From a virus: a stretch of DNA of 23,309 bases. Positions 3 through 16,363 of this stretch are shown in pieces. Below the pieces are notes generated by a model that was not told the origin of the DNA, did no database searches, and saw only the letters and a program-made list of their open reading frames with translations. The position numbers were made by a program, and so were the translations under genes. The DNA lies in IMG/VR virus record IMGVR_UViG_3300008219_000104, positions 1 to 23,309 of that record; one strand, 5' to 3'. The first letter of the stretch is position 1. Each line of letters starts with the position of its first letter.

Positions 3-524
3 GGATGTGAGGCACAATGTTGTGAAGATAAAGAGTATTGTAGTAGACTTGCAATTCAGTGTTATATGAGAAGATACACAAGAGGACTATCCGAGTGTCA
101 ATGTGGTAGTTGCCAAGGAGGCGATAACTGTGATTGTCAGGGATCAACATATGTGCCAGGGTGTTGCAGGAAGGATGAATGTATTGCTTATAATGGTGCT
201 TTGACTTGTGAAGAGATAGCAAGAATGCATAACGGTGGACCCTGTGGACACAAGACTACTGCCACTGATCATTATTGGTATGGTTGGCCTTATGAACCTA
301 GTATCCCTTCCACCCCCGATCTCCGATGCATTGATTGTGATTGGTTAAATAGCGCAACAGCGTGTGAAAGGTTTGCCACCTGTAGAGGTATATTGAACCA
401 ATTGTGTTGTATGAAAGAAGAGGGCAGCCAATGTGGAGACCTTTCAGAATGTGTGGATTGTAATATCTCTTATCAAGGATGTGGCACTGGTAAAATCAAA
501 GTAGTGATAGACACTAAAGGATAA
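3..524 (+). CDS. Cysteine-rich repeat protein, C-terminal part (5' end outside window)
   Basis: The reading frame is open to the left edge. Cys-rich sequence (AQCCEDKEYC) precedes the first in-frame ATG at 66, so that ATG is probably internal and the gene begins upstream of the window. About 174 residues are visible. They contain at least three CC-type modules (AQCC, PGCC, NQLCC), each followed by spaced cysteines and an 'EC...C' element, the same pattern as the giant protein that follows. The tail after the last module is short and ends VVIDTKG. No membrane segment is visible. The next gene starts 40 bases downstream. I infer a paralogous Cys-rich structural or appendage protein. The function is not recognisable from sequence, and an LRR tail like that of its neighbour is absent here. 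Confidence 0.8.
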   Translation, partial: GCEAQCCEDKEYCSRLAIQCYMRRYTRGLSECQCGSCQGGDNCDCQGSTYVPGCCRKDECIAYNGALTCEEIARMHNGGPCGHKTTATDHYWYGWPYEPSIPSTPDLRCIDCDWLNSATACERFATCRGILNQLCCMKEEGSQCGDLSECVDCNISYQGCGTGKIKVVIDTKG

Positions 525-564: not shown

Positions 565-3500
565 ATGAGCATTCAATTCAGAACAAGGTCTAGAGGATTT
601 GGTGTTGACCCAGACACACTCATGGGTGCTTGTTGTGTGGATGATGGTTGTGTACAAACTTCTTTGAGGATTTGTTATGATAATGGCGGAGAGTTTTTCG
701 CAGGTAAGAATTGTAAGGAAGAAAATCCTTGTGCGAAAGGCACAGGAGAATCTCGATCTCTTTATGGTGTTTGTTGTGACGAACATGGATTTTGTTATAT
801 TACCACCGAAGGTGAATGTGAATGTAGAAATGGAACATGGAAGGGTAAAGAATTCGATTGCCTGTCTTACGACTGTTGTGCTGGATCAACCGCTGCTCAA
901 CAAGCATGTTGTATGGGTAAATACATAAAAGGCGTTTCTGGTGATTACAGTTGGGCTGGACTTTGTAAAGATTTAAAACCATGTGAATGCTTGGATCTTG
1001 GTGGTGTTCCCAGAGGACCAGATTCTAGATGTTCAACAATTAATTCTGCTGGTGGTTGTGGTGTTACTGGTGCAACAGCACATGGTAGTTGTTGTGTAGA
1101 AGGAAATTGCCATAGTCCAGATACAGTAAAGGGAACATTCGTAGATGGGTATACCGCCGGCGATTGTGCTTATCTTGGCGGTCTTTGGGGTGGTTCTGGC
1201 AGCAATTGCAGTGACGGAACTACATTCTCTACTTCTTGGCCTTGTGCTTGGCCAACGGGTTCTTGTTGTTTTGGATATCAACCGTTTCACGGTGTAACAT
1301 ATTGTGATAGTGGAAAAACTTGTGGTGATTGTCTGAATCTTCCGCCTGGTGGAAGTGGCGGAGTAGCATGGATAATCGGTGCAACTTGTGGAAATATAAC
1401 CGAGATTGATGGTGTAAACTGTATTCCACCACAACCAGAAAATAAGGGTGTTTGTTGCATTCCAGAATACTTCGGTGTTGAAGATTCTAGCATTAAACCA
1501 TTCATTGTTGATTATAGTTGTTATGTCACAACAGAAAACCGATGCATCTCTATTGGTGGATTGTGGAGTGAAAAAGAAGAGAGTTGTGATGATGTAGATT
1601 GTTGTTCTCTTTACCAAGATTGCACTTTGGGACCAGAGGGTTCGTGTTGTCAATTCGACCTTGGCAGTGGAAATTATGTGAGGTGTGACAACACCGCAAT
1701 TTATAACTGTGAACAAATTGCTATCAATAATAATAATATTCAAACTCTGTTTTATGAGGGTGAACAGTGTGATGACGAAACTGGATATCCGTGTAGTGAC
1801 AGGATTATGACTACCGATTCGTGTTGTCTGTGGCAGCACAATGGAATTTATATTGGTTGTCAAAACATAGGAGAGAATGATCTATGTCCGCCCACTCCTG
1901 AATATGTTGGGATGAGATTTGACCAGCCATGTGAATCACCAGGCTTTAATTGTTCTACACAGAAAGTAGGAGCATGTTGTCATGGTGTTCAATGCACTTT
2001 GACAAGCAGGGGTGGGTGTGCTAAATTAAGTGGAATTTTCTACGAGGGTTGGAATTGTATAGACAATTGTAATGATCTTCCTTGCTGTTCGGTAACTGAT
2101 GATACAGTTATTGCGTGTTATAATAAGGACAATGCACCAATTGATGTTGTTGGTGCGGATAGATGTTTAGATTCTTGGTCTGTTCCTTCACAGCATTTGA
2201 ATAAAGAATTTGCTGCTGAATATCTAATTGATCTTGGAATTGATAATCCAGTTGCTGTTCATACTAATTCAAATCCATCTTTGTTGTTTAGTTGTGAAGA
2301 TTGTGGTTATGGTTGTTCAAGAAGTAGAGGATCTTGTTGTTGGAATGGAATGTGTGTTCCTTCAAGAACACAAGAAGAATGTAGACAGTTGGGTGGTATC
2401 TTCCAGAGGTGTGAGGGAATACCATTTGTGAATATTTCTGATAGTTGGGCAACTGAAAATCCGTGTATTGAAGCGGGTTGCTCTGGAACTTTAAGAGGGA
2501 CGGAAGAAGAATATTGTGATGAGCCAGAGGATTGCTTTGGAGCATGTTGTACCAATGGTGGTGTTTCGTGTGGCAAAAATAGTGAATGTCCTAACGGACA
2601 ATGTGTAGGAGGATATTGTTCCTGCATTCCTGGCGGGGATTGTGATTATAGACTTCGATCAGAATGCTCTGGATGTTTCTATGGTTGCGGTACGCAATGT
2701 TGTAAGAGTTGTGTAGATCCTAGCGACGGGGTGTGTTGTTTGTCTGGTGATGGTGGTTGTCAATCCGACCTCGATCCAGAACAATGTGATGCTTTTAATG
2801 GAACTTATCATTTTGGTTCATCGTGCGACATTTGTGAAGGTTTCGGTGCAACAGAAGGATCTTGCTGTTATGAGTTTGAACCTTCTAAGTTTAAGTGTAT
2901 TCAGGCAGAAGAACTTGCCTGTTGTAATTTGAATGGAGAATTTTCTGCTGGTGAAAATTGTGTTGATAATTGCTCAGAAGATTGTAGTGAAGAATGTATC
3001 AGTTGTGCTGGCTGCGGTGGGAAAAATTGTGGTGGTGAATTTGGTGCCTGTTGTAATCCTGAAGATGGCACATGTCAACATCTGCCAATAAATGAATGTT
3101 GTGAAAAAAACGGGACGATGGAAGACTGTTTAGAAAAATTTAAACCAAATCTTTCCTGTGAACAGGCAAATTGTCCTTCGTGTGTTTGTTGTGATGTAAA
3201 TGTGTGTCCCGATTGTAAGCCATGTTGCATGTCCCATAGCGAAACAGGAGTTAGTGTCTGTAGGGATATGCCGCCTGGAGAATGTATAAGTGCTGGAGGA
3301 ACACCACAACTAGAAGGAACATATTGTAATAATTACATAAGTGGACAATATACAGAGGGAGACATATATTGCCATTACTGTGCATGGAAATCAGCGGGTG
3401 GTGAAGCACCTTCGGGGTGGGAGGATGACTATATAACAAACCTTGGGTATGTTTGTCGTGCTTGTTGTGAGGGTGGTGGAACACTTGAAACCTGTCATCC

Positions 3501-6500
3501 GCTAGAAACATTCCAAGATCATATTGATTATGACAATTTAGAATGTAATACATTATTCTCAACTGCCGATTTTTGTCAGACTGATGATACTATTTATCTT
3601 CCAGAGGAATGGTGTGTGGAATGTGATTGTCAATCGAAGGGTGCTTGCTGCCATTGTGTTTCTGGTTGTGCTGAACTGTGTCAATTCGGTGAGGGTGAAG
3701 GACCGTGTAGTATAGCAGGGCCCGACGATGATGATAGTGGGTGGACTAAAGAGGACTGTGAAGTCGAAGAAGGGCAGGATGGAAATGGTGGAGTTTGGTT
3801 GGGACCAGGAACAAGTTGTCCTCAAGGACCTGGGGCGGTATCTTGTACTCCACATCTAAGGCCTTGTTGTACATGCGGGGGAGAATTTGGATGGGATGAT
3901 GTAGATAATAGTGATGGAGATTTTGGCCAAGCAGGCCCATGTCCGAGCCTTGGGCCAGGAGAAGTTGGTGATTGTTGTGATATAGGTGAAGGACCAGGAG
4001 TTACAGATCCTCCGTGGTCAGGAACTACCTGTCAGATGAAGTCTGCCTACACTGAAGATACTTGTATAAATTGGGATGATACGCCAGGATATCTGGGAAT
4101 ATACGGCGACACTTGTGGAGATTATGGTGGATCGGCAAACTGCCAGACTTGTGATGATCCAGATTTTGGCAAGGGTGCGTGTTGTTCGTGTCATAGATTT
4201 GCATTCAATTGGCCCTATCATCCAGAGGAGGATCAAGATTGGTCCACCCATGGCGATAGAACTGGTGATTGTCAAGGAGGAGAAACTAAATGTTTATTCA
4301 CAACAAAGAATGAATGCGATCTGTTAAATAAGTGGGGAAATACAAATTCTGAGGCGGGGCATGATTTCGCATTAGGCGAAGTTGCTTTAGGTATATGTGA
4401 TAAATGGGATGAAGATTATTCAACAATAGGTGATTATCCAGAATGTGATTCGTTCCCGTGGGTACACCCATATCCCATAGATTCTGATACTTGGACCGAA
4501 CCTGTTGGAACTTATACTTGGTGGGGACCAAAATCAAATTGTGAAGTTGATAATGAAGAATGGGATTCCTTTGATCAAATAGAACGGCTTTTTGTTTCTC
4601 CTTGTAATTCAGGTCAAGTGTGTCGCAGTTGGTACAGCAATACTTACTTTAATTGTTATCCCAATTCCTTTAGTCCACACTTCCCAACAGAAGATGATCC
4701 CTATATTTGCCATGATGTACCATTTACTTTCTGCGGCACAAACTGGGGTCAAGGAAGTCACGCTCACCGTACTAGTAGTGGTTCGTGGAGTGGTGATACT
4801 TGGCATGGATGGAAATGGATTCCGCCAGAATGGGCAACCCCAGATCGATATTACCCCGATGATAGGGGAACACCATTAAAGCAAGAGGGATATTGTGATG
4901 GCAGAGAACCAGAGTGTGGGACAGGATGCCCAGAGTGTATGTTGGACCAGTTTGTTTCTCGCCCGTGGTATGAAAATGGCCATGGAGTTTGGGCTGGTTA
5001 CGGTCTAGATGTCTATGAACGAGATTGTAGGCGTGGATGTCAAATGTTTGGTGCATGTTGTAATCCAAAATTGGGTGTTTGTAGCAGATGGCCACAAGAT
5101 CAATGTATAAAACTTGGTGGATATTTTATGGGAGCGCCAAGATGTGCAGATATATGCGGTTCTGTTGGCGAATGTATGGATGAAACAACTCATACTTACG
5201 GTGATTCTAAACTTTGGCCGACGCATTGTGGGACATGTACTGCTTGCGAAAATGTTTCTTCTGCTTATAGAAATAAAGGGAACATTAAGTATAGAACTTT
5301 CATACACGGAAGAAAAGATGTAACTGCAACCATTCCGTTCTTTGGGTTTGCAAATGTAGAGACTCCCCCGATTGATATTCCAGAAAATGCTATGTTCCCA
5401 CAGGGAGATGCAAATTCTGTACTCTATTATAAGATATCTAATAGTCGTGATTTATCAAATCCTGTTGTTGAAGCCATTCCTTTCCCAACAGATCCAACAA
5501 GTCATCAATACATTCAGGGGTATTCTGATGTGAATGGTTCTTATAATCTTCTTTCGTGGGGAATAGTTGGGGGAGGGGAAGAGTTATTCAAGAGTTATAG
5601 AAATAGTATTCGGACACTTTGGTTGACAAGAAAACATCAGACTCCAGAAAATGCTGAGTTGGCGAATATGTTTGAACCATATTATCATTCGAAGATTGAA
5701 TTCTCAGAAGTACCGAATCTAGAAATGTTAGTAATAAATCCTGCTAGGTATGGAAACGGTAGAAATGAGTTCGACGAAAATTGGAATTCTTGCAAAAACG
5801 ATACCACTGGATATTATAGTGGAGTCTATCTTACAAGAGATATTTCTAGATCAGTACAAAGAGGAAGTAAATTAAAGACACTCATTGCAGCAGATTCTTC
5901 CATTGATTCGGGTTGCACTCCATTGCAATACTTAAATCTGTCATCTATAAGAAAATTAGAAACCGTTCATGTGAACAATAACGAATTGTATAGGTTGGAC
6001 ATACAAGAAGGAAATAAGATTCGAGAACTGTGGGCACAAGATAATAAGTTGGGTTCGGTTGACGGACCATCTTGGTTAAATTCGCCTGGGTTTGTTGGTT
6101 CCCAAGAAGAGTTCCCAATGAGAAAACTTAATTATATTGAGAGATTAATTGTTTCGGATAATGATATTAAATCTCTCATCTCTTCACCACAAACATTCAA
6201 TAATCTGACATCCTTACTTGCATCTAATAATGCAAATTTACATAGTGGTGTTCCTCTGTATCTTGATGCACCATCTCTTGAGTACCTTGATCTTTCTGGT
6301 TGTGGTCTAGAAGCGGGTATGACAATTCGAAGATCCTCGAAACTAAAGCAAATTCTTCTTCGTGAAACTCATCTCGGAAACGCATCTAAGCAGAAAATAG
6401 ACTATGAACATTTTGCCTTTGGACAAAACAAGATAGATGATTTAATAAATCTAGAAACTATTGTTCTTACAGGCAGCAGACTTCGATTCTTAAACTTGGG

Positions 6501-6939
6501 CGCCGACACCCAGATAGAATGGGGCGACCCTGGAGTTGTTGGAGAATATAATAATTATGGATATGCTTTTTGGAATCTAACATATGCTGATCTGAGCGAC
6601 AACATTCTATTAACGAAAGTTCAACTTCCAAGTCCAACTGATGTATATGCTACTGCACAGAAGAAACATCTCCGCTATGTAAATGTTAATGGAACTGCTT
6701 TGGGTGAGAGCGGAATAAACAGAGAAGATGCACCTGGCTTTGATGCTTTCTTTAGTCAATCTGCATTCATTAATCCAGAAGGATATCCTGTCGGACATGT
6801 TCTTGAAGTATCAGCAAGAAATATCAGAGACTTGAACGGTAATAGAGTTACCCTTTCTGTAGAGAAGTATAATGAAATTACAAATCTTTGGAATGGAAGT
6901 GAAAGATTTATTGTTTTAGATGTTGACATAGATAAATAA
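565..6939 (+). CDS. Giant (2124 aa) cysteine-rich modular protein with C-terminal leucine-rich repeats
   Basis: The start is set by AAGGA at 554-558, six bases before the ATG. Residues 1 to about 1560 hold about twenty modules of the type G-[ASV]-C-C-x(n)-C-x(n)-EC-x-x-x-GG-x(n)-C-x(n)-C. Examples are GACCVDDGCVQTSLRICYDN near residue 21 and FGACCNPKLGVC near residue 1495. By hand count about 187 of these 1560 residues are Cys. Residues of about 1100-1490 are also rich in Trp, Asp, Gly and Pro. A non-repetitive linker (about 1560-1710) leads to roughly ten LRR units (about 1710-2050; LEYLDLSGCGL, IERLIVSDNDI, LRYVNVNGTAL) and a short beta-type tail. There is no signal peptide, fitting a virion protein. 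It sits where T4 has genes 12 and wac, so an adhesin, fibre or whisker role is inferred. The modules resemble Cys-rich repeats I recall from bacterial surface proteins. No enzymatic motif was seen. Confidence 0.9.
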   Translation: MSIQFRTRSRGFGVDPDTLMGACCVDDGCVQTSLRICYDNGGEFFAGKNCKEENPCAKGTGESRSLYGVCCDEHGFCYITTEGECECRNGTWKGKEFDCLSYDCCAGSTAAQQACCMGKYIKGVSGDYSWAGLCKDLKPCECLDLGGVPRGPDSRCSTINSAGGCGVTGATAHGSCCVEGNCHSPDTVKGTFVDGYTAGDCAYLGGLWGGSGSNCSDGTTFSTSWPCAWPTGSCCFGYQPFHGVTYCDSGKTCGDCLNLPPGGSGGVAWIIGATCGNITEIDGVNCIPPQPENKGVCCIPEYFGVEDSSIKPFIVDYSCYVTTENRCISIGGLWSEKEESCDDVDCCSLYQDCTLGPEGSCCQFDLGSGNYVRCDNTAIYNCEQIAINNNNIQTLFYEGEQCDDETGYPCSDRIMTTDSCCLWQHNGIYIGCQNIGENDLCPPTPEYVGMRFDQPCESPGFNCSTQKVGACCHGVQCTLTSRGGCAKLSGIFYEGWNCIDNCNDLPCCSVTDDTVIACYNKDNAPIDVVGADRCLDSWSVPSQHLNKEFAAEYLIDLGIDNPVAVHTNSNPSLLFSCEDCGYGCSRSRGSCCWNGMCVPSRTQEECRQLGGIFQRCEGIPFVNISDSWATENPCIEAGCSGTLRGTEEEYCDEPEDCFGACCTNGGVSCGKNSECPNGQCVGGYCSCIPGGDCDYRLRSECSGCFYGCGTQCCKSCVDPSDGVCCLSGDGGCQSDLDPEQCDAFNGTYHFGSSCDICEGFGATEGSCCYEFEPSKFKCIQAEELACCNLNGEFSAGENCVDNCSEDCSEECISCAGCGGKNCGGEFGACCNPEDGTCQHLPINECCEKNGTMEDCLEKFKPNLSCEQANCPSCVCCDVNVCPDCKPCCMSHSETGVSVCRDMPPGECISAGGTPQLEGTYCNNYISGQYTEGDIYCHYCAWKSAGGEAPSGWEDDYITNLGYVCRACCEGGGTLETCHPLETFQDHIDYDNLECNTLFSTADFCQTDDTIYLPEEWCVECDCQSKGACCHCVSGCAELCQFGEGEGPCSIAGPDDDDSGWTKEDCEVEEGQDGNGGVWLGPGTSCPQGPGAVSCTPHLRPCCTCGGEFGWDDVDNSDGDFGQAGPCPSLGPGEVGDCCDIGEGPGVTDPPWSGTTCQMKSAYTEDTCINWDDTPGYLGIYGDTCGDYGGSANCQTCDDPDFGKGACCSCHRFAFNWPYHPEEDQDWSTHGDRTGDCQGGETKCLFTTKNECDLLNKWGNTNSEAGHDFALGEVALGICDKWDEDYSTIGDYPECDSFPWVHPYPIDSDTWTEPVGTYTWWGPKSNCEVDNEEWDSFDQIERLFVSPCNSGQVCRSWYSNTYFNCYPNSFSPHFPTEDDPYICHDVPFTFCGTNWGQGSHAHRTSSGSWSGDTWHGWKWIPPEWATPDRYYPDDRGTPLKQEGYCDGREPECGTGCPECMLDQFVSRPWYENGHGVWAGYGLDVYERDCRRGCQMFGACCNPKLGVCSRWPQDQCIKLGGYFMGAPRCADICGSVGECMDETTHTYGDSKLWPTHCGTCTACENVSSAYRNKGNIKYRTFIHGRKDVTATIPFFGFANVETPPIDIPENAMFPQGDANSVLYYKISNSRDLSNPVVEAIPFPTDPTSHQYIQGYSDVNGSYNLLSWGIVGGGEELFKSYRNSIRTLWLTRKHQTPENAELANMFEPYYHSKIEFSEVPNLEMLVINPARYGNGRNEFDENWNSCKNDTTGYYSGVYLTRDISRSVQRGSKLKTLIAADSSIDSGCTPLQYLNLSSIRKLETVHVNNNELYRLDIQEGNKIRELWAQDNKLGSVDGPSWLNSPGFVGSQEEFPMRKLNYIERLIVSDNDIKSLISSPQTFNNLTSLLASNNANLHSGVPLYLDAPSLEYLDLSGCGLEAGMTIRRSSKLKQILLRETHLGNASKQKIDYEHFAFGQNKIDDLINLETIVLTGSRLRFLNLGADTQIEWGDPGVVGEYNNYGYAFWNLTYADLSDNILLTKVQLPSPTDVYATAQKKHLRYVNVNGTALGESGINREDAPGFDAFFSQSAFINPEGYPVGHVLEVSARNIRDLNGNRVTLSVEKYNEITNLWNGSERFIVLDVDIDK
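625..5157 (+). repeat. Array of about 20 degenerate Cys-rich protein modules
   Basis: Protein-level repeat inside the giant gene. Module starts are recognisable from CC preceded by GA, GS, GV, KP or RA: for example MGACC, YGVCC, HGSCC, TGSCC, KGVCC, EGSCC, TDSCC, VGACC, RGSCC, FGACC, DGVCC, KGACC. Most modules run 35-60 residues; some in the last third are longer and lose the GG element. DNA copies have diverged and no near-identical tandem units stand out, so the expansion is old or under diversifying selection. Confidence 0.8.
5704..6708 (+). repeat. Leucine-rich repeat segment of the giant protein
   Basis: About ten units following LxxLxLxxNxL spacing: LEMLVINPARYG, LKTLIAADSSI, LETVHVNNNEL, IRELWAQDNKL, IERLIVSDNDI, LTSLLASNNANL, LEYLDLSGCGL, LKQILLRETHL, LETIVLTGSRL, LTYADLSDNILL and LRYVNVNGTAL. 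The unit length is irregular, with insertions between repeats. The segment is nearly free of cysteine, unlike the rest of the protein, so this is a domain fusion. LRRs usually form curved protein-binding or glycan-binding solenoids. Confidence 0.8.
6931..6938 (+). promoter_or_regulatory. Weak late-promoter-like box (GATAAATA)
   Basis: Seven of eight positions match TATAAATA (first base G). The box overlaps the stop codon of the giant gene, 53 bases upstream of the next start. The same stop-codon overlap is seen for the exact box at 20971. It could be chance in AT-rich DNA. Confidence 0.25.
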
Positions 6940-6991: not shown

Positions 6992-7456
6992 ATGGGTGAA
7001 AAGAAATCAATCAGCGAAAAGATTGGAATGGCAAAGAGTTTCGCTAAATCAATTCTGTCCCGCGGCCTAACAAATAAAAAAACTGATAAGATTACCAAAC
7101 AACTCAGAGTTATTAGTTGCTTTGGGGACGGGGGAGAATTGATACCATGTGAGTATCTTCAAACCAGTAAAGCCGATCCAACCAAAAATTTTTGTGAAGG
7201 GTGTGGATGTGGGGACAGAAAAGGCACATGGTTGGTAGCAAACGAAGATGAATATAGTAAATTAGACTATCCAAAACTTGGTTGTCCTCTTCAGATGCCA
7301 GGATTCACAAACTACGAAGAAAGTGAACCCGACGAAGCAGAAGATCCAGTAACTCGTAGATATTATATTGAACAGTTAGAACCTGAAAGAATTAAAAATA
7401 TTAAAGTCTCATTACCTGAGCCTCCTGATCCTCCTAAAAAGAAAAAGGAAGAGTAA
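6992..7456 (+). CDS. Six-cysteine small protein of unknown function, upstream of gp13
   Basis: 154 aa, preceded by AAAGGA at 6977-6982, nine bases before the ATG. The N-terminus (residues 1-40) is basic and helical-looking. The centre carries Cys43, Cys53, Cys68, Cys71, Cys73 and Cys98, including FCEGCGCGD, a plausible zinc- or iron-sulfur-binding knuckle. The C-terminus is acidic and then ends in a Pro/Lys stretch (PEPPDPPKKKKEE). It is the last gene before a strong terminator, so it is probably co-transcribed with the giant Cys-rich gene rather than with gp13. I have an impression of similar small proteins in other marine T4-like phages but cannot name a function. A metal-binding accessory or structural role is an inference only. 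Confidence 0.8.
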   Translation: MGEKKSISEKIGMAKSFAKSILSRGLTNKKTDKITKQLRVISCFGDGGELIPCEYLQTSKADPTKNFCEGCGCGDRKGTWLVANEDEYSKLDYPKLGCPLQMPGFTNYEESEPDEAEDPVTRRYYIEQLEPERIKNIKVSLPEPPDPPKKKKEE

Positions 7457-7462
7457 TGAAGT

Positions 7463-7486
7463 AGCCCCTAAAGGGGCTTTTCTTTT
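7463..7486 (+). terminator. Intrinsic (Rho-independent) terminator
   Basis: A perfect six-pair stem AGCCCC / GGGGCT closes a TAAA loop (stem 7463-7468 with 7473-7478), followed by TTTCTTTT. It lies seven bases after the stop of the six-cysteine gene and 44 bases before gp13, separating the Cys-rich block from the morphogenesis operon. Confidence 0.9.
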
Positions 7487-7530: not shown

Positions 7531-8331
7531 ATGGCTGAACCCTATTCATTAGACTCTTTAATTGAATATTCTTTTCGAAGACTTGGCGAACCAGTTATTG
7601 ATGTCAATGTCGATTATCAACAGGCTGTTGAGCGGGTAGAAGATGCACTCCAACTTTTTGCAGAAAGGCATTTTGATGGAGTAGAGAAGCATTATTATAA
7701 GCACAAAGTCACGGCTGATGATAGAAGCAATGGTTACATTGATACAAACAGTTTAACCGATGGAGGAGGATACACGGGCGCCCCGCCTGGTAAAAATATC
7801 TTAGCAGTAACGAAAGCCTTTAGATTTGGTTCACAGCAAGCGAGCATGTTCGATGTTCGATATCAAATGTCACTTCATGATTATTTCGGAATTAATAGAA
7901 ATATTCATTGGGGTGCGGCTCTTGGTGTATCATCGTATGATTCAACAAAGCGTTTTATTAGTTTGATAGAACAGTTATTTGAACCAGAAAAACAAATTCG
8001 TTTCAACAAGGCTACAAATAAATTGTATATTGACATGGACTGGTCAGAAGATATTACTGTGGGCGAATTCCTTCTCATTGAAGCCTATTCTAAATTAGAT
8101 GCTTCCACCTATACAGAAATATATAATGATAAATTATTGAAGGAATATGTTACAGCACTTATAAAGAGACAGTGGGGACAAAATTTATCCAAGTTTGAAG
8201 GAGTTCAGTTACCTGGCGGCGCTACTCTTAGGGGAGCAGAAATACTTTCTGAAGCAAACGAAGAGATACAAAGAATAGAAGAAAAAGTTCAGTTGGAATA
8301 CGAACTTCCAATTAATTTTTCTATTGGGTAG
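7531..8331 (+). CDS. gp13: Neck protein gp13
   Basis: 266 aa (T4 gp13 is 309). The N-terminus MAEPYSLDSLIEYSFRRLGEP, followed by a V(D/E)DALQLFAERHFDG segment, is the familiar opening of gp13 in marine T4-like phages; I recognise it from memory of the family. In T4, gp13 and gp14 form the neck that closes the DNA-filled head after packaging and creates the docking site for the tail. AAAGGAG at 7515-7521 supports the start. It heads a tight cluster: gp14 follows three bases after the stop, implying translational coupling. No membrane segment or unusual feature was seen. Confidence 0.92.
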   Translation: MAEPYSLDSLIEYSFRRLGEPVIDVNVDYQQAVERVEDALQLFAERHFDGVEKHYYKHKVTADDRSNGYIDTNSLTDGGGYTGAPPGKNILAVTKAFRFGSQQASMFDVRYQMSLHDYFGINRNIHWGAALGVSSYDSTKRFISLIEQLFEPEKQIRFNKATNKLYIDMDWSEDITVGEFLLIEAYSKLDASTYTEIYNDKLLKEYVTALIKRQWGQNLSKFEGVQLPGGATLRGAEILSEANEEIQRIEEKVQLEYELPINFSIG

Positions 8332-8334
8332 TAA

Positions 8335-9258
8335 ATGGCAAGAAACAAATATTTTAAAGATTATGCTGGTGAGCAAGACACTGTTGAAAATATAACCATT
8401 GAAATAATTCAAACAATGGGTAGGGATATGGTATACATTCCCAGAGACATCGTAACAAAGGATGATATCTTTGGTGAAGATACATTATCCAAGTTCGAAA
8501 AAGGTTTTAGTCTTGAAATGTATATTCAATCCGTCGATGGGTTTGAGGGTGAAGGTGATATATTATCAAAATATGGTTTACAAATTAATGACAGAATTGA
8601 GTTGATTGTTTCTCGTAAAAGATTTCAAGATGTAGTCACAACTTTAAGTTCAATTGAACGACCAAGAGAAGGCGATTTGATCTTCTTTCCGTTGAGTAAG
8701 ACTCTGTTTGAAATTAATTTTGTCGAACACGAAAATCCATTTTATCAACTCGGCAAACTCTATGTCTATAAACTCTCCTGTGAGACATTTACCTATAGTG
8801 AAAGTATGGAAATTGATACTGGAATTGATGATATTGATATTGTAGATACGGAGCATAAGCAATATGAAATCAAACTTACTCTCGGAGATTTAGTAAGTTC
8901 AACTGTTAATTTCCTCGAAGGAGAAACTATATTCCAAGTTTCTAATACGCTTAGTGGCTCCGCAGCAGATGCAGATGTAACAGCACAGGTGACAAATTGG
9001 GATTCTGATAATAAGATTCTATATGTTTCAAATCTATCTGGAACTTTATCGACTGGTTCTTCGAACGATAGTGTCATTGGTATGACTTCTGGTGCGGAGT
9101 ATAAGTTGTCCACCTCGACTACTACCACCACCATTATTGTGACAGAACCACAGGACAGCGAAACATCTGGAGACAATGAAGATTTAGAATTCTCTGTTGA
9201 CACAGATAATATCTTTGACTTTACTGATACGGACCCATTCTCTGAAGGTAATTACTAA
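8335..9258 (+). CDS. gp14: Neck protein gp14
   Basis: 307 aa (T4 gp14 is 256). The start MARNKYFKDYAGEQDTVENI, and the later KFEKGFSLEMYIQSVDGFEG and NDRIELIVSRKRF segments, match gp14. With gp13 it forms the neck that joins the filled head to the completed tail. The extra length compared with T4 comes largely from a Gly/Ser/Thr-rich beta-type insertion at about residues 200-260 (SNTLSGSAADADVT, followed later by GTLSTGSSNDSVIGMTSGA), then a Ser/Thr/Asp-rich tail ending FSEGNY. It has no good Shine-Dalgarno of its own, so translation is probably coupled to gp13. Its TAA shares its last base with the gp15 ATG. Confidence 0.9.
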   Translation: MARNKYFKDYAGEQDTVENITIEIIQTMGRDMVYIPRDIVTKDDIFGEDTLSKFEKGFSLEMYIQSVDGFEGEGDILSKYGLQINDRIELIVSRKRFQDVVTTLSSIERPREGDLIFFPLSKTLFEINFVEHENPFYQLGKLYVYKLSCETFTYSESMEIDTGIDDIDIVDTEHKQYEIKLTLGDLVSSTVNFLEGETIFQVSNTLSGSAADADVTAQVTNWDSDNKILYVSNLSGTLSTGSSNDSVIGMTSGAEYKLSTSTTTTTIIVTEPQDSETSGDNEDLEFSVDTDNIFDFTDTDPFSEGNY

Positions 9259-10175
9259 TGTTTAGACCATTTTATAACGAGTCTATTCGAAAACTAGTGG
9301 TCGCTTTTGGATCATTGTTTAATGATATTCGTTTGGAGCATACTGACTCTGGTAGTACAAAACAATTTATTAGAGTTCCTTTGTCATATGGAGCAAAAGA
9401 AAAGTTCATTCGGCGAATAGAAGAACAGAGTTCTATATCAGGAACAACGAAAGTTATGATTACTCTTCCCAGATTGGGATTTGATATTACCAATATCTCA
9501 TATGATCCTATGAGAAAGAGAAACACATTAACCAGAAGAAGAACGAATTTATCAGGAGCAACTGGTGGAGCCATATCATATAATTATGCAGAGGTTCCAT
9601 ACAATTTTGATTTTTCTCTATATGGATTTACAAGAACGATGAACGATGCTCTTCAGATAACAGAGCAAATTCTTCCTTACTTTACACCAGAATTTACGGT
9701 GACTGTAAATTTCAATGATGTTAATAAAAGAGTTGATATTCCAATTATTTTGAATAATGTTAGTCTCGAAGAAGAGTTTGAGGGTGATTTTGAAACAAGA
9801 AGAAATATAACAACTCAATATGACTTTACTGCAAAATCATATGTCTTTGGACCTATTCGCAAGACTGGTGTTATTCTTCATACCGAAACTACATTCTTCG
9901 ATCTTGTGGATGATAATTATCTTCGATCTGGACCTACTGGTGCATTGAGCAGAATTGATGTTGGTGTGAGTGGTCCTTCCTACAGTTCAGAATTAACTGG
10001 CGGCACATTCACCGATTACATAACATACAAGAATCTGTATTCAAGAGGAGCAAGCGGATTTGGTCCTACTGGTTCTACACAAGGCGCACATCAATGGACA
10101 AGAGGTTATATAGATACTTACGGAAACACATATCCGTCTGCTACATATAATCCACCCCAAGGAAGTGATTTTTAA
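9258..10175 (+). CDS. gp15: Tail sheath stabiliser / tail completion protein gp15
   Basis: 305 aa (T4 gp15 is 272). The start MFRPFYNESIRKLVVAFGSL, then FNDIRLEH and the segments FIRVPLSYGAKEKFIRR and ITLPRLGFDI, are hallmark gp15 sequence. In T4, gp15 forms a hexameric ring capping the tail tube and sheath; it stabilises the extended sheath and binds the neck. The ATG overlaps the gp14 stop by one base (TAATG), a classic coupled start. The final roughly 90 residues are Gly/Ser/Thr/Tyr-rich (GPTGALSRIDVGVSGPSY and similar) and extend beyond the T4 length; this tail may be surface-exposed. A 30-base gap without a promoter box separates it from gp16. Confidence 0.92.
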   Translation: MFRPFYNESIRKLVVAFGSLFNDIRLEHTDSGSTKQFIRVPLSYGAKEKFIRRIEEQSSISGTTKVMITLPRLGFDITNISYDPMRKRNTLTRRRTNLSGATGGAISYNYAEVPYNFDFSLYGFTRTMNDALQITEQILPYFTPEFTVTVNFNDVNKRVDIPIILNNVSLEEEFEGDFETRRNITTQYDFTAKSYVFGPIRKTGVILHTETTFFDLVDDNYLRSGPTGALSRIDVGVSGPSYSSELTGGTFTDYITYKNLYSRGASGFGPTGSTQGAHQWTRGYIDTYGNTYPSATYNPPQGSDF

Positions 10176-12399: not shown

Positions 12400-12407
12400 T
12401 ATAAATA
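12400..12407 (+). promoter_or_regulatory. T4-type late promoter upstream of gp18a
   Basis: Exact TATAAATA in the 91-base gap between gp17 and gp18a, with no conserved -35, as expected for promoters read by a gp55-type late sigma factor. The predicted leader is about 55-60 bases and ends in AAGGAG before the gp18a ATG. Confidence 0.85.
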
Positions 12408-12469: not shown

Positions 12470-14338
12470 ATGCCGTTTAGTGTTAGCCCTAGTGTCACCG
12501 TAATAGAAAAAGATCTGAGTGCAATAATTCCATCACTCTCTACAACGGTAGCAGCATTTGTTGGTAGATTTGACTGGGGTCCAGTTGATGAAGTCATGGA
12601 CATCGGAAGCGAAAAAGAATTATATGAAGTCTTTGGACCACCCTCTCCCGAAGAACGGGGTACAGATTGGTTTTGTGCTGCTAACTTTTTAAATTATGGT
12701 GATAGATTAAAGATTGTTCGCGTTGATGAGAGCCGTGTAGCAGGCAATCCTGGCACTTCTGCATATAGTGGAGCAACGGCCGCGCGTGTTCTCAGCGGAG
12801 CAACTTCTGCTCGATTTGAAGCAAGAGGAGCAGGACAAAAGGGCAATGCTCTTCGATTGTTAGTTTGGAACAACGGGCAACCAGAACCCAAACTTGCTAA
12901 TGGAGATAAGGTGTTTTCTTATGCACCGACATCCACTCAAGCAGTTTATGAAAGTTTCAAGAACGGTGTTTTGAAAGCAGGCCCGCCTGGTACTACATTA
13001 GATGAATGTCATATTGCAATTCTCGACACATTGGGTAAGTATGGATCATCTGGTGATGTTCTTGAACTACACCAAGGACTTTCTCGATGGAGAGGTGTTT
13101 CTGATCCTGTAGGAAAAAGTCTTTATTATAAGGATGTGATTAACTCATATTCTAATTATGTCAAGATTGAAACAAATACTAAAAGAACTATCTGGCACGC
13201 AGGCACAACGGGAGATCCTTCTTGGACACCAGAAACTACTGGTCCCATCAAAGAACATGCTCTTGGTATTGCTACTGATGCACAAGGTCCATTCCAATCA
13301 TTTTTAGGAAGAGGTAGTGCCTACGCTCTCACTCCTTCTTGGAGATTCCAAAAGGGTTCTGGTTCTGGTGTTACATGGCCCTATGAGGGTGTTGGAACCA
13401 GTACCGCTGCGGTGGCATCTGAGAATCCTAATGCTTACAGTATAATAGAAGCATGGACAAAGCACTTCTCTGATCCTGAGTTTATAGATGTTGATATCTT
13501 AATTTCTGGATCAGCAGAACAATTAATTTCTAGGCATCTAGTCAATCTTGCAGAAAGAAGAAAGGATTGTGTAGCATTCCTTTCGCCGCCAGCATCACCA
13601 GCAGGATCAGAATACAATGATACCGTTTATAATACCACATGGTCTGGATACTCTGGTCCTGCTGATGTTGTAAATTATAGAAATAACACATTGAATATTA
13701 ACAGTTCATATACGGTTATGGATAGCGGTTGGAAGTACATGTATGATTCTTATAATGATACGAATAGATGGGTTCCATTAAATCCTGATATCGCTGGATT
13801 GACTGTTCGCACCGAACAATCAACGGATCCTTGGTATTCACCAGCAGGATTTAATCGAGGAAGAATCCAAGGGGTTATAAAACTTTCTATGAATCCAACC
13901 AAGCCACAGAGGGATAAATTATATTCTAACGGAATTAACCCTGTGGTGTCTTTCCCAGGCGAAGGAACTGTTCTGTTTGGAGACAAAACTTTACAGAGAA
14001 GAGCAACAGCATTAGATAGAATTAATGTTAGAAGACTCATGATCCATCTTGAGAAAGCAATTGCTACGGCTTCCAATTTTAATCTTTTCGAATTCAACGA
14101 TGATTTCACAAGAAGATCATTCGTTAGTACAGTTAATCCATTTTTAAGAAGAGTTCAATCACAAAGAGGCATTACAGATTTCAGGGTAGTGTGCGATTCT
14201 ACGAATAACACTTCACAGGTAATTGATAACAACGAGTTTGTTGCAGATATCTTTATTAAGCCTGCTAGAAGCATCAATTATATTCAACTCAACTTTACTG
14301 TCCTAAGAACGAATGCTGTTTTTGAGGAATTGATATAA
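12470..14338 (+). CDS. gp18: Tail sheath protein gp18, copy A
   Basis: 622 aa (T4 gp18 is 659). The start MPFSVSPSVTVIEKDLS, then FVGRFDWGP and ELYEVFGPP, and the C-terminal RINVRRLMIHLEKAI, FNLFEFNDDFTRR, PFLRRVQSQRG and FIKPARSINYIQLNFTVLR segments are gp18 signatures. gp18 polymerises around the tube and contracts to drive it through the cell envelope. AAGGAG about five bases upstream and the promoter at 12400 support strong late expression. A second complete sheath gene follows after 30 bases. Compared with it, copy A is 42 residues shorter, chiefly near residues 88-105 and 255-330, where sequences diverge. Both ends, which form the conserved sheath core in this family, are intact, so this is not a pseudogene. 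Confidence 0.95.
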   Translation: MPFSVSPSVTVIEKDLSAIIPSLSTTVAAFVGRFDWGPVDEVMDIGSEKELYEVFGPPSPEERGTDWFCAANFLNYGDRLKIVRVDESRVAGNPGTSAYSGATAARVLSGATSARFEARGAGQKGNALRLLVWNNGQPEPKLANGDKVFSYAPTSTQAVYESFKNGVLKAGPPGTTLDECHIAILDTLGKYGSSGDVLELHQGLSRWRGVSDPVGKSLYYKDVINSYSNYVKIETNTKRTIWHAGTTGDPSWTPETTGPIKEHALGIATDAQGPFQSFLGRGSAYALTPSWRFQKGSGSGVTWPYEGVGTSTAAVASENPNAYSIIEAWTKHFSDPEFIDVDILISGSAEQLISRHLVNLAERRKDCVAFLSPPASPAGSEYNDTVYNTTWSGYSGPADVVNYRNNTLNINSSYTVMDSGWKYMYDSYNDTNRWVPLNPDIAGLTVRTEQSTDPWYSPAGFNRGRIQGVIKLSMNPTKPQRDKLYSNGINPVVSFPGEGTVLFGDKTLQRRATALDRINVRRLMIHLEKAIATASNFNLFEFNDDFTRRSFVSTVNPFLRRVQSQRGITDFRVVCDSTNNTSQVIDNNEFVADIFIKPARSINYIQLNFTVLRTNAVFEELI

Positions 14339-14368: not shown

Positions 14369-16363
14369 ATGCCATTTAGTGTCAGCCCTAGTGTAACAGT
14401 AATAGAAAAAGACTTGAGTTCTATTATTCCTTCAGTCGCCACAACCGTCGGCGCATTTGTTGGTAGATTCGATTGGGGTCCAACCAATGAAATCGTAACC
14501 ATCGGAAGCGAAAAAGAATTATATGAAGTCTTTGGACCACCAAGTCCAGATGAGAGAGGAACCGACTGGTTCTGTGCTGCTAACTTTTTAAATTATGGTG
14601 ATAGGTTAAGGGTTGTTCGTGTTGATGAAGGATATTCTGGTGGAGGAGGCCAGGCGGGTAATGCGGATACGGTCACTGGCTCTTATACTGGAGCAACTGC
14701 TGCATTTGTTAATAGCGGTGCTACTTCTGCACGACTAGAAGCCAAATTTGCAGGCAATAAGGGAAATGCTCTGGTATGGCATTCTTGGCTTCATGGTCAA
14801 CCAGAACCAATACTTGTGAATGGAGAATCAGTTTTTAGTTATGCACCGACATCCACACAAGGAGTGTTTGATAGTTTTAATAATAATGTATTAACGGCAG
14901 GAATTCCTGGCAGTACATTGGATGAATGTCATATTGCAATTGTTGATAGGTTAGGTTATTATGGAGCATCTGGTGATGTTCTTGAGAGGTGGGAAGGACT
15001 TTCCCGTTGGAGGGGTGCTGTTAATAGTCAAGGAGAAAGCCTTTACTACAAGGATGTAATCAATTCTAACTCGAATTATATTACGATAGAAGACACCACA
15101 AATAGAAGTATTTGGCATGAAGGCACAACAGGTGATCCTACTTGGACATCATCAACTACTTCTGTTCTAGAATTTGGACTTACTGGACATAATGTTGTTG
15201 GCGGGGCGTGCGGGGCTCTTGAAGGCCCATTTAGTGGTATTCGAGGACAGACTTTCACTGACTCTGGCGCAACTCGACAGAACAGGTCTCATTATTGGTT
15301 GATGAGAGGAGCAAGTCCTGGCAATGGCACCATTAGCGGTCATAGCCCGAGGTTCTCCTTTATCCAATTCGCTGGTGGTGTGAAATCTGGAGTAACATGG
15401 CCTTATGAACAAGATTCCACTACTTCAAATGCAACTAATGCAATTGCAAATCCTAACATTTATAATATCAAGAATGCATGGACTGAGCATTTCTCTGATT
15501 CTGATACTGTGGATGTCGATGTTCTAATCTCAGGAGCAGCAGGAAAATTGATATCGAGGCATCTGGTTGATCTCGCAGAAAGAAGAAAGGACTGCGTTGC
15601 ATTCCTTTCGCCGCCAGCGTCACCAGCAGGAACAGAATATAATAGCGTTGATGGGGATACCACATGGGGTGGATACTCTGGTCCCTCTGATATTTTAACT
15701 TACAGAAATGAAACATTAAACGCTAGTACTTCATATGCAGTTATGGATAGCGGTTGGAAGTATATGTATGACTCATATAATGATAGTTATCGATGGGTTC
15801 CATTAAATCCTGATGTTGCTGGATTGGTTGTCCGAACCGAACAAACGACAGATCCTTGGTTCTCGCCAGCAGGGTTTAATCGAGGTCAGATTCAAGGAGT
15901 TATAAAACTTTCAATCAATCCAAACAAAGTACAAAGAGATGAATTGTATTCTGTTGGAATTAACCCTGTGGTTTCTTTCCCAGGCAAGGGAGTTGTGCTT
16001 TTTGGGGACAAGACGCTTCAAAGAAGACCATCGGCTTTGGATAGAATCAATGTTAGAAGACTCATGATCCATCTTGAGAAGGCAATTTCTACTGCTGCTA
16101 AGTTTAATCTTTTCGAATTCAATGATGATTTTACTCGAAGAGCATTCACAAATACGGTGAATCCATTCTTACGAAGGGTTCAATCGCAGCGTGGACTGAC
16201 GGACTTCAGAGTTGTTTGTGATGAAACAAATAACACTTCGCAGGTAGTTGATAACAACGAGTTTGTTGCAGATATCTTTATTAAACCTGCTAGAAGCATT
16301 AACTACATTCAACTCAACTTTACGGTGTTACGAAGTAATGCAGTTTTTGAGGAATTAATTTAA
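14369..16363 (+). CDS. gp18: Tail sheath protein gp18, copy B
   Basis: 664 aa, close to T4 gp18 (659). The first 85 and last about 250 residues are nearly the same as copy A. The middle differs: a Gly-rich insertion near residues 88-100 (SGGGGQAGNADTVTG) and a longer segment around 265-335 (LTGHNVVGGACGALEGPF and beyond) absent from copy A. A good Shine-Dalgarno (CAGGAG) precedes the ATG, but no TATAAATA lies in the 30-base gap, so its mRNA probably comes by read-through from the gp18a promoter. Its length suggests it may be closer to the canonical sheath and copy A the shortened derivative, but this is not certain. Both reading frames are intact, implying that both are made and may co-assemble. 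Confidence 0.95.
   Translation: MPFSVSPSVTVIEKDLSSIIPSVATTVGAFVGRFDWGPTNEIVTIGSEKELYEVFGPPSPDERGTDWFCAANFLNYGDRLRVVRVDEGYSGGGGQAGNADTVTGSYTGATAAFVNSGATSARLEAKFAGNKGNALVWHSWLHGQPEPILVNGESVFSYAPTSTQGVFDSFNNNVLTAGIPGSTLDECHIAIVDRLGYYGASGDVLERWEGLSRWRGAVNSQGESLYYKDVINSNSNYITIEDTTNRSIWHEGTTGDPTWTSSTTSVLEFGLTGHNVVGGACGALEGPFSGIRGQTFTDSGATRQNRSHYWLMRGASPGNGTISGHSPRFSFIQFAGGVKSGVTWPYEQDSTTSNATNAIANPNIYNIKNAWTEHFSDSDTVDVDVLISGAAGKLISRHLVDLAERRKDCVAFLSPPASPAGTEYNSVDGDTTWGGYSGPSDILTYRNETLNASTSYAVMDSGWKYMYDSYNDSYRWVPLNPDVAGLVVRTEQTTDPWFSPAGFNRGQIQGVIKLSINPNKVQRDELYSVGINPVVSFPGKGVVLFGDKTLQRRPSALDRINVRRLMIHLEKAISTAAKFNLFEFNDDFTRRAFTNTVNPFLRRVQSQRGLTDFRVVCDETNNTSQVVDNNEFVADIFIKPARSINYIQLNFTVLRSNAVFEELI

Follow-up and report, generated by a model that had tools for sequence, protein, structure and literature searches.

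The gene at positions 565-6939 (plus strand) of the analysed window, a fragmentary virus record of 23,309 bases, encodes a giant fusion of a Cys-rich region with an LRR domain and is best read as a virion-associated adhesin, which probably belongs to the tail-fibre cassette in a clade of T4-like phages that have not been cultured. This reading is supported indirectly by synteny, by a constant N-terminal peptide combined with changing C-termini, and by LRR partners that are either fused to the Cys-rich part or split from it. The ORF begins with an ATG start, has orthologues in related contigs, and its product comprises 2124 aa. An earlier, sequence-only reading had placed about 187 Cys in the first 1560 residues. 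We counted 186 in this part, 187 in residues 1-1600, and three in residues 1601-2124, which agrees with the description of the C-terminal part as nearly Cys-free. The protein contains 28 CC pairs, His is scarce according to a composition count, and the N-terminal sequence bears no likeness to a signal peptide, as had also been stated. Cys makes up 8.9% of all residues, compared with 0-1.25% for phage core genes in the same window, where the only other ORFs with a raised Cys share are 6992-7456 (154 aa, 3.9%) and the partial ORF 3-524 (14.5%). A comparison with 50,697 phage records yielded no match to the whole protein, and it is not known from any cultured phage. A twin contig (L002) encodes the same protein (approximately 99% identical, seven amino-acid differences), and an orthologue of 2097 aa in contig L286 is 51% identical. 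The orthologue in L289 is also full length, and partial ones occur in L284, L285, and L006. An assembly artefact was considered and ruled out by the independent orthologue in L286; judged by the sequences, the gene is real.

The Cys-rich region (625-5244, plus strand; residues 21-1560), recognised by a module profile and in the orthologue alignment, contains many GACC-type modules, the typical pattern being GACC-x(2-8)-C-x(5-14)-C-x(3-4)-GG-x(5-14)-C. With a profile built from phage modules only, 272 modules scored at E<1e-3 among the phage ORFs, and the twin of the window protein was matched as well; block-shuffled copies that preserved the composition and the CC pairs gave none. Chance composition as the source of the modules was ruled out by this control. 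Between the window protein and its orthologue in L286, 160 of the 176 aligned Cys (91%) are kept, whereas the other residues of the same region are 46% identical. Because of this difference, the alignment indicates that the Cys are under strong constraint, which fits structural residues. Co-loss of Cys was uninformative as a guide to disulfide pairing, because the modules are detected by their Cys. Since our searches of Pfam, PHROGs, and NCBIfam revealed no family that matches the module, GACC-type proteins remain unannotated at present, and the open-access literature searched did not describe Cys-rich phage fibres of the GACC type. A monomeric structural model of residues 1-350 had low confidence (pLDDT 50), with recurring beta-beta-alpha-beta units; a fold search with this model returned nothing at E<0.001 and gave no evidence for a new fold. 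The material of the proposed fibre is new to the libraries searched; the tail-fibre adhesin as a kind is already known.

The same module occurs in bacteria. A DNA pattern for GACCxxDGxCx7C matched at least 119 stretches in bacterial genomes, and among the matches listed 96 are from Planctomycetota by record title, mostly Phycisphaerae. In the planctomycete-dominated set, the module profile found at least 373 modules at E<1e-3 in at least 104 ORFs, and none in the shuffled controls. Because the first four Cys are already part of the DNA pattern, the comparison of phages and planctomycetes rests on the remaining module and on the profile. The spacing of five to six Cys and the GG are common to both groups, and one profile finds both. 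The N-termini differ, however. Judged by a crude rule, a signal-like N-terminus is present in 65 of 97 planctomycete-set ORFs among the matches listed versus 1 of 62 ORFs from viral contigs, many of which begin with a short GSS motif and GPTGPTG repeats. Bacterial copies thus mostly stand behind a signal-like N-terminus, while the phage copies lack one and often stand behind collagen-like N-termini. The planctomycete proteins with the module apparently are secreted, and disulfides are the usual state of secreted proteins. That phages and Planctomycetota have this module in common may reflect gene exchange or give a clue to the host.

These observations bear on the state of the Cys in the phage protein. 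Disulfide formation after lysis is plausible, because the same module is found in apparently secreted planctomycete proteins and because of an analogy with phage Milano, for which disulfides in the assembled tail, including the baseplate and the fibre attachment, have been solved (PMC10811340). Alternatively, the Cys might serve as intracellular ligands of zinc or iron and thereby stabilise the fibre or store metal, with no disulfides being formed. Such a metal-binding protein would be in line with synthesis in a reducing cytoplasm, as the sequence has no signal peptide, and weakly also with a negative search for sulfhydryl oxidase in 30 large related contigs, a weak result in that control genomes also gave nothing. 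Thioredoxin was not detected above cut-off in these contigs. However, His residues are few, and the CC-rich six-Cys modules match those of the apparently secreted planctomycete proteins, in which disulfides are to be expected. We consider metal binding unlikely.

The surroundings of the gene, as seen in related contigs, are those of a tail-fibre locus. Upstream in the window, ORF 3-524 (plus strand; 173 aa with 25 Cys) represents the C-terminal portion of another giant collagen-like/Cys-rich gene. The complete gene on the twin contig (L002:177-3680) codes for 1167 aa with 84 Cys and has a collagen-like N-terminus with GPTGPTG repeats; PHROG tail-fibre matches cover this collagen part and are subject to the caveat of low complexity. 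In related contigs, the baseplate wedge gene gp6 (phrog_219, E to 5e-114) and a gp7-like wedge gene are followed, in this order, by a tail-fibre gene (phrog_4492), collagen-like Cys-rich genes, the Cys-rich/LRR family, a small Cys-containing gene, and gp13. A search for Baseplate_J was negative in six contigs, though the PHROG gp6 was present. In one relative (L231:3-13765 with L291:3-3944), giant genes of the Cys-rich or collagen-like kind stand in a row of at least five, and the upstream Cys-rich protein of L083 (L083:1-2658) carries a von Willebrand A domain (PF00092, E 4e-13).

Downstream lies a small conserved gene (6992-7456, plus strand) for a protein of 154 aa with 6 Cys, which occupies the same slot in nearly all relatives. 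It had no match in Pfam, PHROG, or the 50,697 phage records, and perhaps encodes a putative assembly factor. Its counterparts comprise 154-226 aa with 6-10 Cys and are kept in L031, L033, and L055, which have no Cys-rich fibres. A terminator-like hairpin detected in a consensus scan (7463-7478, plus strand; eight such hairpins were found in the window versus 6.4 expected by chance) stands between the Cys-rich/LRR unit and gp13. The order from there is gp13-gp14-gp15-gp16-gp17-gp18 (twice)-gp19-gp20-gp21-gp22-gp23, which follows T4 except that the sheath gene is duplicated. On the plus strand, this series starts with the neck protein gp13 (head-tail adaptor Ad2; 7531-8331; phrog_211, E 3e-36), the neck protein gp14 (8335-9258; PF11649, E 3e-39), and the tail sheath stabiliser gp15 (9258-10175; PF16724, E 1e-63). 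The two tandem tail sheath genes (12470-14338 and 14369-16363) match phrog_23 with E of 2e-113 and 7e-115, respectively. The middle of the second one is visibly unlike its counterpart in L002 and is a possible hypervariable stretch. T4-type late promoter motifs (TATAAATA) occur on the plus strand at 12400, 16381, 20971, and 22284, just upstream of structural genes. These four in the window compare with 1.5 expected, and the scan found none directly upstream of 565.

At the corresponding place, T4 has the gene order 6-7-8-9-10-11-12-wac-13. From this position, the sequence-only reading had proposed a new type of adhesin or whisker. The adhesin part of the proposal is backed indirectly by the synteny, by the constant N-terminus with its changing tips, and by the fused and split LRR forms, whereas an identity with gp12 or the whisker has position in its favour and no sequence match. 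As the nearest large gene before gp13, like wac in T4, the gene could encode a neck whisker that takes the place of fibritin, is anchored at gp13/gp14, and retains the tail fibres or senses them. However, the window protein matched neither the tail collar fibre (gp12) nor the fibritin families in Pfam and PHROGs. Moreover, the small conserved gene and the terminator-like hairpin separate it from gp13, and it reads as the end of a fibre array and not as a neck gene. A whisker function is quite improbable.

The C-terminal part (5302-6936, plus strand; residues ~1580-2124) is the proposed binding tip of the adhesin. Based on an input alignment of 11 homologues, AlphaFold2 predicted for the monomer, with good confidence (pLDDT 80.1, pTM 0.84), that it takes the fold of an LRR solenoid. 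In searches with Foldseek and VIA-align, the top rows for this model were LRR proteins (Z 17-20), the best structural neighbours being SDS22, SspH2, internalin, and Leptospira LRR proteins (Z 19-20). The Pfam signal of the window protein itself is weak (LRR_6, E 0.025), and LRR_8 and LRR_1 rise above cut-off in relatives only. The LRR solenoid of the sequence-only reading is thus borne out by the agreement of structure prediction and fold search, and by the relatives that pass the Pfam cut-offs. A PDB search revealed no close sequence relative of the domain. Cys-rich region and LRR are fused in the window protein and in L002, L286, and L289, and the fusion is partially seen in L284, L285, and L006. 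In L007, L224, L287, and L011/L288, the LRR is encoded by a separate, adjacent gene. In a gp13 tree, the fused and split forms fall into one clade (support 98/99).

The opposite end of the protein carries a conserved peptide (MSIQFRTRS...; 565-621, plus strand; residues 1-19), for which we propose a function as virion-docking tag. When a profile of these 19 Cys-free residues was searched against 7079 ORFs, it retrieved mostly proteins encoded upstream of gp13, which were matched at their own N-termini (E 1e-5 to 0.2) and included proteins with an Lcl_C tip. In other clades, proteins in the same slot share the peptide, and their C-termini are an LRR with a cupredoxin-like insert or an Lcl_C-like domain. 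For the latter, 9 of 21 members match Lcl_C of Pfam (best E 6.9e-5), with the bit scores listed falling below the 34.9-bit cut-off. In the type represented by L012, the insert in the LRR-bearing C-terminus matches annotated virion structural and tail-fibre proteins. This cupredoxin-like insert, which has a CxxHxxMGG motif, is present in L012:1369-4449, L014, L016, L017, L018, and L057, and is common to virion structural and tail-fibre proteins of cyanophages and pelagiphages. Apart from the L012-type insert, the Lcl_C-tipped relatives and the upstream Cys-rich genes had no match among the 50,697 phage records. A reverse transcriptase (RVT_1) indicative of a DGR was not detected in 30 large related contigs, mostly fragments, with a positive control. 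Receptor-binding proteins usually combine a constant N-terminus with a changing tip. A role outside the virion is quite unlikely. By mimicry of planctomycete-type surface proteins, such a product might act on the host cell during infection or be set free when the cell lyses, and might, for example, clump or cover cells or keep out superinfecting phages. The host recognition cluster of marine T4-like phages does contain non-virion genes as well, and coinfection avoidance and curli-like capture have also been discussed (PMC7029224). However, the protein has no signal peptide, its neighbours are structural, and its N-terminal peptide is common to differently tipped proteins in the same slot.

If the gene encodes a virion-associated adhesin, the short conserved N-terminus would dock on the baseplate or the neck, and the long run of small Cys-rich modules would form a stalk. 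In the cytoplasm, the modules would be synthesised with their thiols free, and intramodule disulfides would lock the stalk once the particle is outside the cell. The C-terminal LRR solenoid may then bind a ligand on the host surface. Such an architecture of stalk and tip is plausible, the model of the Cys-rich part having a pLDDT of 50. The same docking and stalk design would bear other tips in related phages, and the adhesin would belong to an array of several giant Cys-rich/collagen-like fibres encoded side by side. A more far-reaching idea, which we regard as possible but tentative, is that an uncultured T4-like lineage possesses disulfide-hardened fibres, namely arrays of giant proteins built from planctomycete-type modules that are made reduced in the cytoplasm, turn into rigid stalks by an oxidation that occurs only after lysis, and bear exchangeable LRR, cupredoxin-like, or lectin-like tips. 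The rigidity of phage fibres usually stems from triple beta-helices or coiled coils. A fibre that is rigidified by oxidation after release would, if real, represent a different building principle and imply a redox-timed maturation step. Among uncultured phages, it would also define a class of receptor-binding protein that is new and recognisable.

Several known systems resemble the proposed adhesin in part. With LRR adhesins and receptors of bacteria and eukaryotes, such as internalin, Leptospira LRR proteins, and decorin, it shares the predicted solenoid fold (Z 18-20); in contrast to these, the phage LRR domain is fused to a Cys-rich region and has no close sequence relative in the PDB. Like T4 gp12 and the wac fibritin, the protein is encoded just upstream of gp13 at the tail-fibre end of the baseplate operon. 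However, it shows no sequence match to them, is about four times longer, and has Cys-rich modules and an LRR where those proteins have fibre domains of beta-structure or coiled coil. The region from VrlC to gp14 in marine T4-like phages has been termed the host recognition cluster and contains tail fibres, and its structural operon encodes collagen repeats and Mtd-like domains (PMC7029224). This cluster of pelagimyophages and cyanomyophages is similar in that it forms a hypervariable island of tail fibres, with baseplate genes (VrlC) on one side and neck genes on the other, and in the collagen repeats and lectin-like domains of its structural operon. It differs in that HTVC008M has no Cys-rich gene in that slot, and the main text of the paper contains no match for 'cystein' or 'LRR' (PMC7029224). 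Agrobacterium phage Milano provides a precedent for many disulfides in an assembled tail (PMC10811340). The structural proteins of Milano average 2.1% Cys, and their disulfides are interchain locks between tail proteins, whereas the protein described here contains 8.9% Cys, arranged in repeated small modules.
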